Source: Paucibacter sp. TC2R-5
GTDB taxonomy: Bacteria > Pseudomonadota > Gammaproteobacteria > Burkholderiales > Burkholderiaceae_C
Direction: 5' to 3'
DNA: 64,000 bases
Assembly: GCF_025717605.1 (NCBI RefSeq)
Contig: NZ_JAJIRQ010000010.1
Span: 1-64,000, forward strand
Shown: piece by piece, positions 26,164-32,760 of the stretch
Layout: every line of letters starts with the position of its first letter
Position numbering within the stretch: position 1 is the first letter of the stretch
The notes under the pieces: generated by a model
What the model was told of the DNA's origin: nothing
Database searches by the model: none
The model's input: the letters and a program-made list of their open reading frames with translations, nothing else
Program-made: the position numbers and the translations under genes

Positions 26164-27351
26164 ATGAGCACAACTTCAGCTCGTGCCAAGCCCGCGTCCA
26201 AAGCCAAAGCTTCGCAGCGTCTCGTCATCCTCGTCGCCACGCGCAAAGGTGCCTGGCTGTTTCACGGCGACGCCCGCCGCAGGAGCTGGAAGGTCGATGG
26301 CCCGCATTTCCTCGGCCATACCATCAGCCATCTGCAGATGGACCCGCGCGACGGCCGCACGCTCTTGGCTGCTGCCAAGACCGGCCACCTTGGGCCCACG
26401 ATCTTCCGCTCCACGGATTTAGGCCGTAGTTGGAAAGAGGCGCAGCAACCACCCGCTTTCGCAAAGCCGTCCGGTGAGCTACCGGCGCGCTCGGTCGACC
26501 ACACCTTCTGGCTCAGCCCGGGGCATGCCAGCGAGACAGGCAGTTGGTACGCCGGCACCTCGCCGCAGGGCCTGTTCCGCTCTGAAGACGGCGGCGTCAG
26601 CTGGGCGCCACTGCCCGGCGTCAACGACAACCCGCAGCTGCTCGAATGGATGGGCTCGGTGCAGGACGGCACGCCCGATGGCCCTAAGTTGCACTCCATC
26701 ATCATTGACCCGCGTGACCCCGCGCACCTGTACTTCGGCATGTCCGGCGGCGGCGTGCACGAGTCGCGCGACGGCGGCCGCAGCTGGGCCACCTTGATCA
26801 AGGGCATGCAGGTAGTCGGCGGCTTTGACCCCGACACCGTCACCTTTCATGACCCGCATTGCCTGCGACTGTGCCCGAGCAATCCGGACCGGCTCTACCA
26901 GCAAAACCATTGCGGCATCTACCGGCTGGACCGGACCGGCGACCCTGCTGACGACGTCTGGCAACGCATAGGCCTGAAGATGCCCAAGCGCGTCGGCGAC
27001 ATCGGTTTCCCCATGGTGGTGCACCCGTTTGATGCCGACACAGCCTGGGTCTTTCCGATGGACGGCACCGACGTCTGGCCGCGCACCAGCCCCGACGGGC
27101 GCCCGGCCGCCTATGTGACGCGCAATGCCGGCAAAAGCTGGCAACGACTGGATCAGGGCTTGCCTAGCGGCCAAGCCTGGTGGACGCTGAAGCGCCAAGC
27201 GATGACGGTAGACACACAGGCTGTCCCCGCCCTGTACCTGGGCACGACCAGCGGTGAGTTGTGGATAGGGCACGAGGAAGGCGCAAACTGGGTCAATATC
27301 GCGCGCCACCTGCCTGAGATTTACGCGGTGGAAGTCGCGACCTTGCCGTGA
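26164..27351 (+). CDS. BNR/Asp-box beta-propeller protein, cytoplasmic, partner of a MoaD-like protein
   Basis: Protein of 395 aa with four clear Asp-box (BNR) motifs of the S-x-D-x-G-x-S-W type at about 83-90 (STDLGRSW), 140-147 (SEDGGVSW), 201-208 (SRDGGRSW) and 319-326 (TRNAGKSW), plus a degraded one near 369. The repeats predict a sialidase-like propeller, but the Arg-triad of sialidases is not evident, so an enzyme activity is doubtful. There is no signal peptide, unlike most BNR hydrolases, so it should be cytosolic. A good ribosome site (GAGGAG about 7-12 nt before 26164) sets the start; the open frame to 26038 is ignored. The next gene, a MoaD/ThiS-like protein, starts 7 nt later. Confidence 0.85.
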   Translation: MSTTSARAKPASKAKASQRLVILVATRKGAWLFHGDARRRSWKVDGPHFLGHTISHLQMDPRDGRTLLAAAKTGHLGPTIFRSTDLGRSWKEAQQPPAFAKPSGELPARSVDHTFWLSPGHASETGSWYAGTSPQGLFRSEDGGVSWAPLPGVNDNPQLLEWMGSVQDGTPDGPKLHSIIIDPRDPAHLYFGMSGGGVHESRDGGRSWATLIKGMQVVGGFDPDTVTFHDPHCLRLCPSNPDRLYQQNHCGIYRLDRTGDPADDVWQRIGLKMPKRVGDIGFPMVVHPFDADTAWVFPMDGTDVWPRTSPDGRPAAYVTRNAGKSWQRLDQGLPSGQAWWTLKRQAMTVDTQAVPALYLGTTSGELWIGHEEGANWVNIARHLPEIYAVEVATLP

Positions 27352-27358
27352 TTCAAAC

Positions 27359-27616
27359 GTGAACGTCTTGCTGCCGAGCGCCCTACGTTCGTACACCGGC
27401 GAAACCCAGATCACGGCAACCGGTGACTCGTTGAACGAGCTGTTCGCCGAGCTTGAGCGCCGCTACCCCGGACTGCGCTTTCGCGTCGTCGATGAGCAGA
27501 ATCAGCTGCGGCCGAATATGCGCATCTTCGTCAACGGTGTCGGCGTGCGCGACCTGAGCCACGCCTTGGCGCCGAATGATTTCGTCGCCATCGTGCTGGC
27601 GCTCAGCGGGGGCTAA
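27359..27616 (+). CDS. MoaD/ThiS-like ubiquitin-fold sulfur-carrier-type protein
   Basis: Small protein of 85 aa with a beta-grasp fold pattern: MNVLLPSALRSYTG (strand 1), LFAELERRYPGLRFRV (helix), MRIFVNGVGVRDL (strands) and DFVAIVLALSGG (final strand and tail). The C-terminal Gly-Gly is the residue pair that becomes a thiocarboxylate or conjugated end in MoaD, ThiS and related proteins. The start is GTG at 27359. It is translationally close to the BNR-propeller gene and no molybdopterin or thiamine genes are near, so it is probably a stand-alone carrier dedicated to that partner rather than true MoaD. It converges with uvrD 16 nt away. Confidence 0.85.
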   Translation: MNVLLPSALRSYTGETQITATGDSLNELFAELERRYPGLRFRVVDEQNQLRPNMRIFVNGVGVRDLSHALAPNDFVAIVLALSGG

Positions 27617-27632
27617 GAGCTTACAAACCCGT

Positions 27633-30050
27633 TCAGTCGATCGGCGTCAGCTTCGCCACCGACAGCGCCAGCCACTTCATCCCATGCCGCCCGAAGTTGA
27701 CCTGCGCGCGGGCGTCGGCGCCGCTACCTTCCAGCGTGAGCAAAACGCCCTCACCGAACTTGGTGTGGAAGACGCCCTTGCCTACCTTCAGCCCGCCATG
27801 CTCCGCGTCTTCTTTTTTCTTCATCGCCGCTGGCACGGCCGGCTCGGCCCAGGCGGCCTTGTCGTGATTGACGCGACCCGCGCCGACCATGGACTTCAGC
27901 CCCGAGCCGCGCTCCCAGGCGCTTTGGTATTCCTTGGCAAAGCCGGAACCAAAAGCCTGGCGCGGCGGCGTCAGCCATTTCAAGGCGCTCTCGGGTAACT
28001 CGTCAAAGAAGCGGCTCTTGACGTTGTAGCGGGTCTGGCCGTGCAGCATCCGCGTCTGGCTGAAGCACAGATAAAGGCGCTGGCGTGCCCGCGTGATGGC
28101 CACATACATCAGCCGGCGCTCTTCCTCCAAGCCATCGGCGTCGGAGGCCGAGTTTTCATGCGGGAACAAGCCCTCTTCCAGGCCGGTGATGAAGACCGCA
28201 TCGAACTCCAGGCCCTTGCTGGAATGGACCGTCATCAGCTGCACCGCGTCTTGGCCGGCCTGCGCCTGGTTGTCGCCGGCCTCCAGCGAGGCGTGCGTCA
28301 AGAAGGCGGCCAGCGGCGACATGATCTCGCCGGTCTCGGCATCGGGCGTGAAATTGGCGGGTGCCACAGCAGTCGGGAACCCTTCCGAGATGGCGCCCGG
28401 CGACAGCTCATCCACCGGCAACGCCACAGCGTCCTTGCCAAAACCCTCTTGCGTGACGAAGGCCTCGGCGGCGTTGATCAATTCGCCCAAGTTCTCCAGC
28501 CGGTCGGCGCCGTCCTTGTCATTGCGATAAAACTCGGACAGACCAGAGATTTCCAGAATCTGTTCGATGATCTCGCGCAGGGTCAAGCCTTGCGTCAGAT
28601 TGCGGGTCGAGTCGATCAGCTGCGTGAAGGCTTGCAAATTACTGCCCGCCTTGCCGGCCACCGCGCCGACGCTTTGATAGAGGCTGCGGCCCGACATCCT
28701 GGCCGCATCCTGCAGCAACTCGATCGCGCGCGCACCGATGCCGCGAGTCGGAAAATTGACCACGCGTAAAAAGCTGGTGTCGTCATTGGCGTTCTCGAGC
28801 AGGCGCAGATATGACAGCGCATGCTTGACCTCGGCCCGCTCAAAGAAGCGCAGGCCGCCGTAAACGCGGTAAGGAATGCCGGCATTGAAGAGCGCCGACT
28901 CGATCACCCGTGACTGCGCATTGCTGCGGTAGAGCACGGCGATTTCCTTGCGGTCCACGCCCTGGCGGTGCAAGGCCTGCGCCTCTTCGATCAGCCATTG
29001 CGCCTCGGCAAAGTCGCTCGCCGCCTCGTACACGCGCACCGGCTCGCCGGGGCCGGCGTCGGTGCGCAGAGTCTTGCCCAGGCGCTTGCTGTTGCGGCTG
29101 ATCAGCTCATTGGCGGAGTCGAGGATGTTGGAAAAGCTGCGGTAGTTCTGCTCCAGCTTGATGACTTTTTTGACCCGGTATTCCCGCTCGAAATCGGCCA
29201 TATTGCCGACCCGCGCACCGCGAAATGCGTAGATGCTCTGGTCATCGTCGCCAACCGCGATCACGCCCTGACCCCGCCCTGGTGGCGCGAACATCTTCAA
29301 CCACGCGTATTGCAGCTTGTTGGTGTCCTGGAACTCGTCCACCAGCAAATGCTGGAAGCGCCGCTGGTAATGCTCGCGGATGGCCAGATTGCTCTTCATC
29401 AGCTCATAGGAGCGCAGCATCAACTCGGCAAAGTCGACCACACCCTCGCGCTGGCATTGGTCTTCATAGGCCTGGTAGATCGCGATCAGCGTCTTGGTCT
29501 GCTCGTCGATCGGTTCAATATCACCGGGGCGCTTGGCATCCTCCTTGGCGCCGGCGATGAACCAGCCGACCTGCTTGGGCACAAAGCGCTCCTCGTCCAG
29601 CTTCATAGCGCGTATCACCCGCTTTATGGCGGAGACGGTGTCGGCGCTGTCGAGAATCTGAAAGCCCTGCGGCAGACCCGCTAACTTCCAATGTGCACGC
29701 AAGAAGCGGTTGCACAGACCGTGGAAAGTGCCAATCCACATGCCGCGCACATTGACCGGCAGCATCGCGGTCAGGCGCGTCAGCATCTCCTTGGACGCCT
29801 TGTTGGTGAAGGTCACCGCCATCACGCCGGCCGGTGTGACCTGGCCGGTCTGCATCAGCCAGGCGATGCGGGTGGTCAGCACCCTGGTCTTGCCCGAGCC
29901 GGCGCCGGCCAAGATCAAGCAGGGCTCGGCCGGGGCGGTGACGGCCGCGTATTGTTCGGGGTTGAGGCTCTTCAGCAGGCCGGTGGCGTCAACAGCAGCA
30001 ACAGGTGCATCAGGAGCGGCGAAGAAATCGTCTTGCGGGGGCAGGTTCAT
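27633..30050 (-). CDS. uvrD: ATP-dependent DNA helicase UvrD/PcrA family
   Basis: Superfamily 1A 3'-5' helicase of 805 aa for excision and mismatch repair and removal of stalled polymerases. Walker A (AGAGSGKT, about 48-55), motif Ia (TFTNKASKEM), motif II (VDEFQDTN), motif III (GDDDQSIYAFRGA), motif IV (QNYRS), motif V (TVHSSKGLEFD) and motif VI (VAITRARQRL) are all present in order. The C-terminus (about 750-805) forms the small Tudor-like domain, GKGVFHTKFGEGVLL, which binds RNA polymerase in UvrD/PcrA. UvrD versus Rep cannot be separated fully by eye, but the C-terminal domain favours UvrD/PcrA. Confidence 0.94.
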   Translation of the reverse strand: MNLPPQDDFFAAPDAPVAAVDATGLLKSLNPEQYAAVTAPAEPCLILAGAGSGKTRVLTTRIAWLMQTGQVTPAGVMAVTFTNKASKEMLTRLTAMLPVNVRGMWIGTFHGLCNRFLRAHWKLAGLPQGFQILDSADTVSAIKRVIRAMKLDEERFVPKQVGWFIAGAKEDAKRPGDIEPIDEQTKTLIAIYQAYEDQCQREGVVDFAELMLRSYELMKSNLAIREHYQRRFQHLLVDEFQDTNKLQYAWLKMFAPPGRGQGVIAVGDDDQSIYAFRGARVGNMADFEREYRVKKVIKLEQNYRSFSNILDSANELISRNSKRLGKTLRTDAGPGEPVRVYEAASDFAEAQWLIEEAQALHRQGVDRKEIAVLYRSNAQSRVIESALFNAGIPYRVYGGLRFFERAEVKHALSYLRLLENANDDTSFLRVVNFPTRGIGARAIELLQDAARMSGRSLYQSVGAVAGKAGSNLQAFTQLIDSTRNLTQGLTLREIIEQILEISGLSEFYRNDKDGADRLENLGELINAAEAFVTQEGFGKDAVALPVDELSPGAISEGFPTAVAPANFTPDAETGEIMSPLAAFLTHASLEAGDNQAQAGQDAVQLMTVHSSKGLEFDAVFITGLEEGLFPHENSASDADGLEEERRLMYVAITRARQRLYLCFSQTRMLHGQTRYNVKSRFFDELPESALKWLTPPRQAFGSGFAKEYQSAWERGSGLKSMVGAGRVNHDKAAWAEPAVPAAMKKKEDAEHGGLKVGKGVFHTKFGEGVLLTLEGSGADARAQVNFGRHGMKWLALSVAKLTPID

Positions 30051-30107
30051 TGGGGCATTTTAGAGAGGCCCGCGTGAAATCGAATTTACGGCATGATGCG
30101 GGTCGCC

Positions 30108-30509
30108 ATGAATGACTCCAACCTTCCCTGCCCCTGCGGCCTACCGTCCAGCTACGGGCAATGCTGCGGACTCATCCACCAGCACTTTGCGGCCACCGGC
30201 AAGTTGACCGCCGCCGATGCCGAAGCGCTGATGCGCTCACGTTACAGCGCCTATGTGCTGGACCTGCTGGACTATTTGCTGGCGACTTGGCACCCGAGCA
30301 GCCGACCCAGCACATTGACGCCGAACGAGCCGGGTTTGAAATGGCTGGGCCTGCAAGTAAAAAAGCATGTCCGGCAAGATGCCGAACATGCTTTGGTGGA
30401 ATTCGTGGCCCGCAGCAAGCTGGGGGGGCGGGCCTACCGGATGAGCGAGATCAGCCGGTTTGAACGAGTGGATGGCGCCTGGCTCTATCTCGACGGAGAG
30501 ATTGGCTGA
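30108..30509 (+). CDS. YchJ-family SEC-C motif protein
   Basis: Protein of 133 aa with an N-terminal SEC-C zinc motif (CPCG, then CC in YGQCCG, about 7-20) and an NTF2-like domain with the family stretch ALMRSRYSAYVLDLLDYLLATWHPSSRP. It matches the UPF0225/YchJ family by length and motif order, usually lacking the second SEC-C domain in betaproteobacteria. The function is unknown. The ATG at 30108 is preferred; 30093 would add five residues. Its stop is immediately followed by that of the converging membrane-protein gene (stop codons touch at 30509/30510). Confidence 0.85.
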   Translation: MNDSNLPCPCGLPSSYGQCCGLIHQHFAATGKLTAADAEALMRSRYSAYVLDLLDYLLATWHPSSRPSTLTPNEPGLKWLGLQVKKHVRQDAEHALVEFVARSKLGGRAYRMSEISRFERVDGAWLYLDGEIG

Positions 30510-30917
30510 TCAGGCGAATTCCTGGCGAACCAGCATCGTGTTCAGTTCGCGCAAGGCCCACAGCAGCGCCGCACTTGCGGCCAAGCAAGCCAGACCGAGT
30601 ATCACAGGCGAGCCCGCCACCCAAGGCAGCACCGGCAGCGAGAACAAAATCAGCGCCAGCAAGCCCAAGCTCAAGCGGCGCGCCCACTCCAGGCGGCGGA
30701 GCAGCCCCTGACCTGACGCAATCGACGCAGCCGAGGCCAGCACCAACAGCGCCTGGCCAGCCATCAACCACCAGCTATGTCCGGCAGCCGCAAAGCCACT
30801 CATGTGGCCAAACAAATAGCCGCTCAGACCCAGGCCCAACAAGCCCAGCAGCATCAGGGCCCAAGCCACGGCGCTGACCAAGGGCGAGCGATATCCAACA
30901 CGGAAGGTTATAGGCAT
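30510..30917 (-). CDS. Hypothetical small membrane protein, four predicted segments
   Basis: Protein of 135 aa that I do not recognise. Four hydrophobic segments can be placed at about 13-34, 44-66, 78-96 and 98-116, joined by short loops with a basic WARRLS loop, giving a helix bundle. The start at 30917 has a fair ribosome site (AGGAG about 8 nt upstream); the open frame to 30977 is less likely. The gene stands alone, converges exactly with the YchJ-type gene and diverges from truC with a 219-nt gap. Codon use is like its neighbours. No function is suggested. Confidence 0.6.
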   Translation of the reverse strand: MPITFRVGYRSPLVSAVAWALMLLGLLGLGLSGYLFGHMSGFAAAGHSWWLMAGQALLVLASAASIASGQGLLRRLEWARRLSLGLLALILFSLPVLPWVAGSPVILGLACLAASAALLWALRELNTMLVRQEFA

Positions 30918-31136
30918 GATGTTGACTCCTGATGCTTTGCACAACTTTGTTCGAACCCTTTGGTTCAAACGATTCATTCACACACAGCTGAGATGATGCG
31001 CGTGGCGTGTGACAGCATTCTTTCGGTGCTGCCCCATACGCGCCATACCCCCTGAATGGGGTATCGGTCATATCTGTGTGAAATCGCACCTTCATAGAGC
31101 AGCCTTGGCTCGCATAGGCAATATTCACCATCAGCC

Positions 31137-31826
31137 ATGTTGCAAATCATCTACATCGACGAACACCTCGTCGCCATCAACAAGCCGGCCGGCCTGCTCG
31201 TCCACCGCACGGCGCTGGACGCTCACGAGCAGCAATTCGCGCTGCAGATGCTGCGCGATCAGTTGGGGCGGCAGGTCTGGCCGGCCCACCGGCTAGACAA
31301 AGGCACCTCGGGGCTACTGCTGTTTGCACTCGATGCGCAAACCGCCTCACTGCTGGGCCAGACCTTCGAGCAAGGCCGGGCGCACAAACGCTACCGAGCC
31401 TTGGTGCGCGGCTGGCCAGCCGAGAGCGGCGTGATCGAGCACCCCTTGGCACGCGACCCGGAGCTGCCCTCGGCCGGCCAAACCATGTTGAGCGCACGCA
31501 CCGATTGGCGTTGCCTTGAACAGATCGAATGGCCGTTCAGCGTCGAAGGACGCTTTGCCAGCAGCCGCTACGCCTTGGTCGAGGCATGCCCGCTGACAGG
31601 CCGGCGCCACCAGATCCGCCGCCACCTCAAGCACATCGCTCACCCCATCATCGGCGACACCACCCATGGCAAGGGCGCGCACAACCGTGCCGTGGCTGCT
31701 CATCTGGGCCTGAACCGCCTGTGGTTGCATGGGCTGGAGCTACAGATCGCGCATCCCGTCAGCGGCGCGCCGCTGCTGCTACACGCACCGCTGGGCGAGG
31801 AATGGCAATTGCTCAAAAATCCTTAG
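31137..31826 (+). CDS. truC: tRNA pseudouridine synthase, RluA family, TruC-like
   Basis: Isomerises uridine to pseudouridine in RNA. The 229-aa protein is a compact RluA-type enzyme without S4 domain. The catalytic Asp is in HRLDKGTSGLLLFA (about residue 53-54), and the family motifs GRRHQIRRHL and HGLELQIAHP are visible. Size and lack of S4 domain point to TruC (tRNA U65), rather than RluA/RluC/RluD, though RluA-like enzymes are close. The ATG at 31137 is fairly clear from the family N-terminus. It is followed by rarD with overlapping reading frames upstream of its start but a 43-nt true gap. Confidence 0.85.
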   Translation: MLQIIYIDEHLVAINKPAGLLVHRTALDAHEQQFALQMLRDQLGRQVWPAHRLDKGTSGLLLFALDAQTASLLGQTFEQGRAHKRYRALVRGWPAESGVIEHPLARDPELPSAGQTMLSARTDWRCLEQIEWPFSVEGRFASSRYALVEACPLTGRRHQIRRHLKHIAHPIIGDTTHGKGAHNRAVAAHLGLNRLWLHGLELQIAHPVSGAPLLLHAPLGEEWQLLKNP

Positions 31827-31869
31827 CCGACAATGGGCCCATGATCCCATCACCGACCTCACCCCAAAC

Positions 31870-32760
31870 ATGAGCCGCGGCATCGTTTATGCCGCCCTCG
31901 CCTATCTGGCCTGGGGTTTGTTCCCGCTCTACTTCAAGCAGATCGCCCAAGTGCCGTCGCTGGAGGTGGTCATGCATCGCACGCTGTGGTGTCTGGTCTT
32001 TATGCTGGGGATCCTGGCTTTCATGAAGCGCTGGGCCTGGTTGGGCGAACTGCGCCGAACCCCAAAGGTGCTGGCCGCCTTCATGCTGTCGGCCTTGCTT
32101 TTGTCAGTGAACTGGGTGGTCTATGTCTGGGCCGTGCAAACCGACCATGTGCTGGACGCCAGTCTGGGTTACTTCATCAACCCGCTGGTCAATGTGGCGC
32201 TGGGTTATGTGTTTTTGCATGAGAGGCCGCGCCGGCTGCAATGGGCCGCTGTCGCCATGGCCGCTGCCGGCGTCTTGTGGCTGACGCTGCAAACCGGCCG
32301 CCTGCCCTGGGTGGCGCTGGTATTGGCGATCAGTTTTGGCTTTTACGGCCTGCTGCGCAAGATTGCCAAGCTGGGCGCCTTGGAGGGATTGACGCTGGAA
32401 ACCCTGATGCTGACGCCGATCGCGCTGACCGCTTTGGCTTGGTGGACTTGGACCGGCCAGAGCGCCATCTCGGCGGCGGTCACCCAGGGTGAAGTCGCGA
32501 CGATGGGCTGGCTGCTGTTTGCCGGGCCGCTGACCGCGATCCCTCTTCTGCTGTTCGCGGCCGGCGCCCGCCGCATCCCCATGGCGACGCTGGGCCTGTT
32601 GCAATACATCTCGCCCTCGCTGCAGTTCATGCTGGGCGTGTGGCTCTACCACGAGCCCATGCAGCCCTCGCGCCTGCTCGGCTTTGCCTTGATCTGGGCG
32701 GCGCTGCTGACCTACAGCCTGGAGGGCTGGTGGGCCAGCCGGCGCACAGCCCAGGCCTAA
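31870..32760 (+). CDS. rarD: RarD-type EamA-family permease
   Basis: Inner membrane transporter of 296 aa with ten predicted segments arranged as two EamA repeats. The N-terminus, MSRGIVYAALAYLAWGLFPLYFK, with LYFK and the following H-R-T-L-W, matches RarD (chloramphenicol-sensitive protein) proteins well. The ATG at 31870 aligns with that start; the ORF could be extended to 31729 inside truC but is not supported. The substrate of RarD proteins is unclear. Its stop lies 4 nt from the end of ahpF, which converges. Confidence 0.88.
   Translation: MSRGIVYAALAYLAWGLFPLYFKQIAQVPSLEVVMHRTLWCLVFMLGILAFMKRWAWLGELRRTPKVLAAFMLSALLLSVNWVVYVWAVQTDHVLDASLGYFINPLVNVALGYVFLHERPRRLQWAAVAMAAAGVLWLTLQTGRLPWVALVLAISFGFYGLLRKIAKLGALEGLTLETLMLTPIALTALAWWTWTGQSAISAAVTQGEVATMGWLLFAGPLTAIPLLLFAAGARRIPMATLGLLQYISPSLQFMLGVWLYHEPMQPSRLLGFALIWAALLTYSLEGWWASRRTAQA

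Follow-up and report, generated by a model that had tools for sequence, protein, structure and literature searches.

A ThiS/MoaD-family gene kept beside an Asp-box beta-propeller gene in Paucibacter and other bacteria: a possible sulfur carrier and its acceptor enzyme

In the ThiS-ThiG, MoaD-MoaE and CysO-CysM systems, a small carrier encoded beside a dedicated partner gene delivers sulfur to that partner, and ThiS and MoaD are activated by an E1 enzyme. Few acceptor enzymes of sulfur carriers are known, and to our knowledge none is a beta-propeller. We describe here a gene pair of Paucibacter sp. TC2R-5 in which a carrier-like gene stands next to a propeller gene, within a stretch of 64,000 nucleotides (nt) that is called the window below (contig NZ_JAJIRQ010000010.1, positions 1 to 64,000). 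The first gene (26164-27351, plus strand, as are all window features given below) encodes an Asp-box (BNR) beta-propeller of 395 residues (aa), which matches Pfam BNR with 34.8 bits for a cut-off of 27. After an intergenic spacer of 7 nt (27352-27358), the second gene (27359-27616, GTG start) encodes an 85-aa beta-grasp protein, which matches Pfam ThiS (PF02597) with 39.9 bits for a cut-off of 22.5 and ends in Ala-Leu-Ser-Gly-Gly (27599-27613). As the first-pass annotation of the window had it, both reading frames are open at these positions and the small one ends in Gly-Gly; since homologues of the two are found as neighbours elsewhere, both are true genes. We tentatively propose, with a probability of about 45%, that the two form a new kind of pair, in which the small protein carries sulfur to the propeller as acceptor enzyme and relies on a shared E1.

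The pairing is widespread. A contig scan gave at least 531 confirmed relatives, the best 80 of which were kept as loci. In 79 of these 80 best loci the small gene adjoins the propeller gene on the same strand and ends in ALSGG; the sole miss (L049) lies on a contig that stops 75 bases beyond the propeller match. The labels among the 80 loci include Alpha-, Beta- and Gammaproteobacteria, Nitrospira, Nitrospinota and Myxococcales, many of them on metagenome-assembled genomes whose labels may be wrong, and the pair is also present in two Actinomycetota records. The first-pass annotation had named neighbourhood confined to close relatives as a ground for doubt, and the pairing reaches well beyond them. 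Other samples, which overlap with each other and with the loci so that their counts are not additive, gave a similar picture. A search of 59 genomes, own genome included, found 23 propeller places, and once seven weak partial ones were dropped all 16 full-length places were paired. A search of 299 sampled Pseudomonadota genomes, again with the own genome, found 16 places, and when the own one and a partial one (G196) were excluded the partner was present at 12 of 14 full-length propellers. Among 16 plasmid matches nine loci were opened, five with the partner (L109, L112, L114, L115 and L116) and four with none. Within the genus of the window, both genes are present in seven of 18 genomes and neither in the other 11. 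The partner is downstream of the propeller gene in the window's type of pair and upstream in the Pseudomonas/Cupriavidus type.

In the small protein, conservation is highest in the Gly-Gly tail. When 28 partners were aligned, with identities to the window protein down to 28%, only six columns were invariant (R51, F57, A81, S83, G84 and G85), and the tail read A-[L/I]-S-G-G in all 28. Outside this alignment, partners end in ALTGG (L018 and L019), GAIAGG (L017) or SVAGG (L115). Loss of the tail had been another doubt raised at first pass, and a single exception was found, in L116 (see below). The ThiS profile is matched by 25 of the 28 partners at an E value of 0.001. The predicted fold of the small protein has a predicted local distance difference test (pLDDT) score of 93.3, with about 60 for the last five residues, and its nearest solved folds are CysO (template modelling (TM) score of 0.91), then SAMP1 and MoaD/Urm1 proteins. 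Matches to CysO entries in the PDB were 3dwg_C, 4n6e_B and 3dwm, and among NCBIfam models those for SAMP1 and Urm1-like proteins were matched below their cut-off. With a profile match over the curated cut-off and a beta-grasp fold with a flexible Gly-Gly in the model, the small protein is, by these predictions, a member of the ThiS/MoaD superfamily. In a tree, 30 partners were split from seven CysO-like or other proteins by one branch whose support, 92/78, is below the mark of the tool; a single origin of the partners is not established by this tree, and one larger by five rows, with long branches, puts one non-partner among the partners.

CysO-CysM, known from Mycobacterium and as BexX/CysO in Amycolatopsis, is the system most like the pair, being the nearest fold and PDB match and having a carrier gene that adjoins the gene of its acceptor enzyme. 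In contrast, the partner in the window is a propeller and not a pyridoxal phosphate-dependent cysteine synthase, there is no local E1 or JAB gene, and the tail is ALSGG instead of AIAGG plus one residue. We considered whether the small protein could be CysO proper and rejected this, the pair not being in a cysteine synthase/E1 operon and its flanking genes being PhoX-like and UvrD. ThiS-ThiG and MoaD-MoaE share with the pair a small, Gly-Gly-tailed carrier beside a dedicated acceptor; unlike them, the pair has neither ThiG nor MoaE, and ThiS, MoaD and MoaE proteins are encoded elsewhere in the genome. Of these genes, that of MoaD lies by a MoeA-like gene and that of ThiS by a ThiG-like one; the only MoaE gene is on a different contig from the pair. 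The other MoaD and MoaE presumably serve each other. The first-pass annotation had asked whether a MoaE lacking its own MoaD might use the window protein; with another MoaD present, and MoaE on a different contig, the small protein was rejected as the MoaD of molybdopterin synthase. Finally, the dual carriers and modifiers SAMP1, Urm1 and TtuB resemble the small protein by family matches below cut-off and by fold, and differ in that no conjugation machinery was found beside the pair.

A reciprocal search of the same 299 genomes with the small protein matched 87 of them. The 13 best matches (at least 79.8 bits) all adjoin a propeller gene, and the remainder score at most 76.9 bits. From this remainder 13 loci were read, the six next-scoring and seven more, their genes being named by reading the sequence and not by profile search. 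Seven of the 13, among them all six next-scoring loci, are of the CysO type, with threonine-synthase-like, carrier and NIL-domain-like genes; a cysteine-synthase-like gene follows in six of the seven (not in L232), and the start of an E1 gene is visible in L210 and L220. The seven carrier genes of this type end in AIAGG plus one extra residue. Among the other loci, L227 and L230 are near an E1-like gene and L231 is beside other genes. Six of the CysO-type loci (L210, L211, L217, L220, L221 and L223) come from one family of the same phylum and another class, a family that is frequent among the matches of the small protein. Three loci of one genus (L228, L229 and L233) have a single frame of 604-630 aa with apparent JAB-like, carrier (ending in ATSGG) and E1-like parts, which we take to resemble the sulfur-carrier genes of thio-siderophores; in L229 a cysteine-synthase-like gene is next to this frame.

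The propeller belongs to the same family as PDB 3b7f (Reut_B4987 of Ralstonia eutropha JMP134, a structural-genomics entry), which matches the window protein with a phmmer E value of 3e-152 and the predicted model of a homologue with a Foldseek TM score of 0.94 by target and 62% identity. In the available part of PMC2716378 this structure has seven blades and its function is listed as 'not known'. It was released as a putative glycosyl hydrolase, unlike the function proposed here, and that part of the article does not mention a partner. We aligned 45 paired propellers and looked for conserved polar residues. Lys28, in the sequence Thr-Arg-Lys-Gly of residues 26-29 (26239-26250), is present in all 45, as are Gly29 of the same stretch, His232 (26857-26859), Gln247 and His249 (Gln247-x-His249, 26902-26910), His287 and Arg344 (27193-27195), and His177 (26692-26694) and Arg307 (27082-27084) are present in 44. 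Residue 27 is Arg in 43 and Lys in two of the paired propellers, and Asn, Thr or Ser in five propellers without a neighbouring carrier. In the model of the homologue, seven of these eight polar residues are placed by the propeller topology on the side opposite the Asp-box loops, at strand starts (His177 and His232, at equivalent places of successive blades) or in turns (as Gln247 and His249, between two strands); the eighth, His287, is on the other side. Asp-boxes of glycosidases likewise sit opposite the active site, according to the available part of PMC2716378. On this model, Lys28, His177, His232, Gln247, His249, Arg307 and Arg344 may form one central pocket, and the conservation of the polar residues suggests an active site without a conserved carboxylate.

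This pattern bears on the annotated function of the propeller, labelled exo-alpha-sialidase or sialidase family protein in public plasmid records (L109, L112 and others). The GH33 and GH74 families require catalytic carboxylates. The window protein has their Asp-box propeller fold, and GH74 enzymes are among the structural neighbours of the homologue's model; conserved catalytic carboxylates are absent from the 45 paired propellers. Since the only Asp or Glu residues conserved in at least 90% of them are Asp60, Glu92 and the Asp-box residues Asp142 and Asp203, a glycosidase mechanism is unlikely, and the name sialidase is not supported by the conservation. The protein also has no apparent signal peptide, in agreement with the first-pass annotation: the N-terminus is Lys-rich and the best 15-residue hydropathy in the first part is 1.14. 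PA1356, a homologue of P. aeruginosa, was predicted by computer to be a candidate for twin-arginine translocation (Tat) by its Arg-Lys pair and failed in an amidase reporter, as reported in the available part of PMC6085387; the 33 N-terminal residues printed there are those of the L109 gene, the start residue excepted. This failure fits a cytosolic propeller, and the protein is probably cytosolic, a location also known for some GH33 proteins (available part of PMC2716378). A glycosidase or sialidase with the small gene as a passenger would account for the BNR/Asp-box matches, the product names and the GH74 neighbours; given the carboxylates, the N-terminus and a pairing kept in both gene orders, we regard it as highly improbable.

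How the tail could be activated depends on genes outside the window. Profiles of the ThiF family and of Prok-JAB match only on other contigs, so that neither an E1 nor a JAB gene is matched in the window, in line with what had been noted. The genome has two ThiF-family genes (contigs C1 and C23, the window being on C2), and its only Prok-JAB match, on C23, scores 23.7 bits for a cut-off of 25. A ThiF-family gene was found in all 34 pair-bearing genomes examined, a presence that only makes an E1-dependent thiocarboxylate possible. Around the pair itself, clustering of rough gene calls within about 8 kilobases gave no recurrent third gene in more than 11 of the 80 loci, save for one minus-strand cluster; these calls picked up the propeller itself in 69 of the 80 and the carrier in 43, and can thus miss shared genes. 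The minus-strand cluster, in 23 loci, was taken for the antisense shadow of the pair, and was followed by YCII proteins (11 loci), a large protein encoded to either side of the pair and on either strand (10), extracytoplasmic function (ECF) sigma factors (8) and three more clusters (7, 7 and 6). A dedicated E1 or JAB gene was matched nowhere in the window and did not recur in the 80 loci by these calls; the profile searches covered the ThiF and JAB families and not E2-like genes.

These data also bear on protein conjugation, in which, as in the SAMP, Urm1 and TtuB systems, the small protein would be joined by its Gly-Gly to lysines, the propeller being a substrate receptor, a ligase-like factor or the main target. 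Propellers often act as protein-binding platforms, the tail ends exactly at Gly-Gly with no extension, the nearest folds include SAMP1 and Urm1, whose family models match below cut-off, and 19 of 24 pair genomes have a Prok-JAB match with an E value of at most 0.001. However, only eight of these 24 have a match over the cut-off, no family except the shadow cluster recurs beyond the 11 YCII loci as far as rough calls can tell, the nearest non-propeller relatives that were read sit in operons of sulfur-carrier type, and the polar residues of the propeller are retained even where a carrier is lacking. We thus consider conjugation unlikely. The first-pass annotation had left the choice between sulfur transfer and conjugation undecided; the pairing and the tail on which it was based hold, and the choice leans towards sulfur transfer, which we favour because the nearest relatives are of the CysO type, no JAB gene recurs by the pair and the invariant polar residues look like those of an enzyme. 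Since the tail is strongly kept, the carrier is akin to CysO and the polar set is enzyme-like, the role of acceptor enzyme is the most likely one for the propeller.

In the proposed mechanism, the small protein would belong to the CysO branch of the ThiS/MoaD superfamily and serve as a dedicated cytosolic sulfur carrier. A shared MoeB/ThiF-type E1, whose gene lies elsewhere in the genome, would adenylate the Gly-Gly tail and then convert it to a thiocarboxylate. The propeller would be the acceptor enzyme, in the position of ThiG, MoaE or CysM, with which the carrier would be in physical contact, and its presumed central, positively charged pocket would hold the substrate that receives the sulfur or would act on the tail itself.

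Several observations weigh against this proposal. In Nonomuraea (L116, 6072-6383) the partner of a paired-type propeller lacks the Gly-Gly and ends in VLPALA. A ThiF-family gene is also found in 11 of 14 control genomes, so that the presence of an E1 in pair genomes is weak evidence. Two of the 299 genomes (G318 and G157) have a propeller and no carrier anywhere in the genome at an E value of 0.01. Three Rhodobacterales plasmid propellers (L110, L111 and L117) have no carrier near the gene, the record of L111 having one weak distant match of 28 bits, and for the Streptomyces propeller of L113, a paired-type one, no carrier was found in the whole 2.8-megabase record. The propellers of G318, G157, L110, L111 and L117 are of a sister subfamily. 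Since the polar set is retained in five sister propellers with no carrier next to them (one with Asp for His287), the propeller can work without a carrier, at least there. Lastly, we folded a homologous locus with both genes in one frame, reading through the stop and a spacer of 34 residues. This model has a pLDDT of 89.8 and a predicted TM score (pTM) of 0.86, and its last five residues have a mean pLDDT of 62, compared with 60 in the carrier alone; with the tail loose and a pTM of this value, the model neither shows nor excludes docking. A structural or regulatory subunit that binds the propeller without any chemistry of the tail, for instance as an activator or a chaperone, would agree with the L116 partner, with the propellers devoid of any carrier and with the pTM, which permits a fixed orientation. 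Four of the six invariant columns of the small protein are the A, S, G and G of the tail, which is unexpected for a purely structural role, and we find this explanation rather unlikely.

A side observation concerns one of the carrier-less propellers, that of Rhodobacter sp. CZR27 (L110, 2589-6116), which adjoins the ergothioneine gene egtB, with egtD beyond.

In many relatives, a sigma factor of the ECF42 type probably turns the pair on, and the product of the sulfur carrier and its acceptor would then probably serve a stress response. Profiles derived from neighbouring genes were run on 110 sources (109 loci and the window), of which 15 gave a match to a YCII-type gene and 12 to an ECF sigma gene extended by DUF6596/TPR; in L052 both are weak matches at a single reading frame and possibly spurious. 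The 80-locus set accounts for 12 and 9 of these, jointly 13 loci, and those outside it are L109 (P. aeruginosa), L143 and L151 (the locus of L017). Two of the ECF genes showed Sigma70 r2/r4, DUF6596 and TPR domains in Pfam, a make-up that agrees with the description of ECF42 in the available parts of PMC6180224 and PMC8999054, which do not mention the pair. As a promoter we used the fixed motif TGTCGR-N14-18-CGTC, modelled in part on the promoters mapped for RpoE10 in the available part of PMC6180224. It was found at most 250 bases upstream of the propeller gene in 13 of the 80 loci, compared with 0.73 expected from its frequency on the two strands of these loci. These 13 loci and the 13 with an adjacent gene are disjoint, 26 of the 80 having one or the other. 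ECF42-like sigma genes are rare, with 26 matches in 24 of 34 chosen genomes. Once the eight genomes with adjacent ECF/YCII genes had been set aside, a sigma gene was present in 13 of the 15 genomes with the motif and in 3 of the 11 without it (Fisher P 0.004), figures that are inflated by kinship between loci. The motif was also found in four of 18 further loci (L009, L010, L012 and L120, L012 being from the genome of L036). A promoter matrix was discarded as evidence, its training on the same loci being circular, and we relied on the fixed pattern and on the gene-motif association. Near position 3527 of L109, on the minus strand, a near-ECF42 motif with CGAC for CGTC lies just ahead of a YciI-family gene beside the pair.

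The relatives thus resemble ECF42 regulons with YCII/DGPF proteins by their neighbouring genes and promoter-like motif, and the window differs, since its genome has no ECF42 gene and no ECF42 motif upstream of the pair. The same gene and motif counts would agree with the pair acting in an ECF42/YCII stress regulon as sensor or effector, with a regulatory and not a metabolic output. We give this a low probability: being a target does not make the pair a regulator, and the own genome, together with the 13 loci of the Pseudomonas/Cupriavidus type, none of which has the motif, argues that the pair works without ECF42. A combination of these ideas, namely a conjugation module induced by ECF42 in many species, borrowing a MoeB/ThiF-type E1 and using the propeller as a target-selecting, ligase-like factor, appears decidedly unlikely.

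Among the papers listed by literature searches, in a collection that leaves out most subscription papers, no title or abstract opening concerned a MoaD-BNR pair; two listed papers with the word 'MoaD' look like users of the Binding MOAD database. Word searches of four papers on the family (PMC1779556, PMC1949818, PMC1796856 and PMC2948915) returned neither BNR nor sialidase, and the few mentions of 'propeller' in them refer to other beta-grasp proteins or to figure abbreviations. For the 3b7f family, whose structure was released in 2007, which has no assigned function and which appears as 'sialidase' in records, the pair provides a definite partner and a chemistry that can be tested. It also suggests target genes for ECF42, a large group of sigma factors with few studied members. 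If the sulfur-transfer proposal is true, a new thio-product or thio-modification awaits discovery in soil and water bacteria.

Concerning the remaining features of the locus, the propeller had been credited with four Asp-boxes. Three are strict, STDLGRSW (26410-26433), SEDGGVSW (26581-26604) and SRDGGRSW (26764-26787), at residues 83, 140 and 201, and two are degenerate, at residues 319 (with Asn) and 369; the count of four includes one of the latter. The plasmid of Mitsuaria sp. 7 (L112) carries a pair of the other type, with the partner upstream; around it are RarD, pseudouridine synthase, YchJ and UvrD genes, kinds that also follow the pair in the window (27633-32760).

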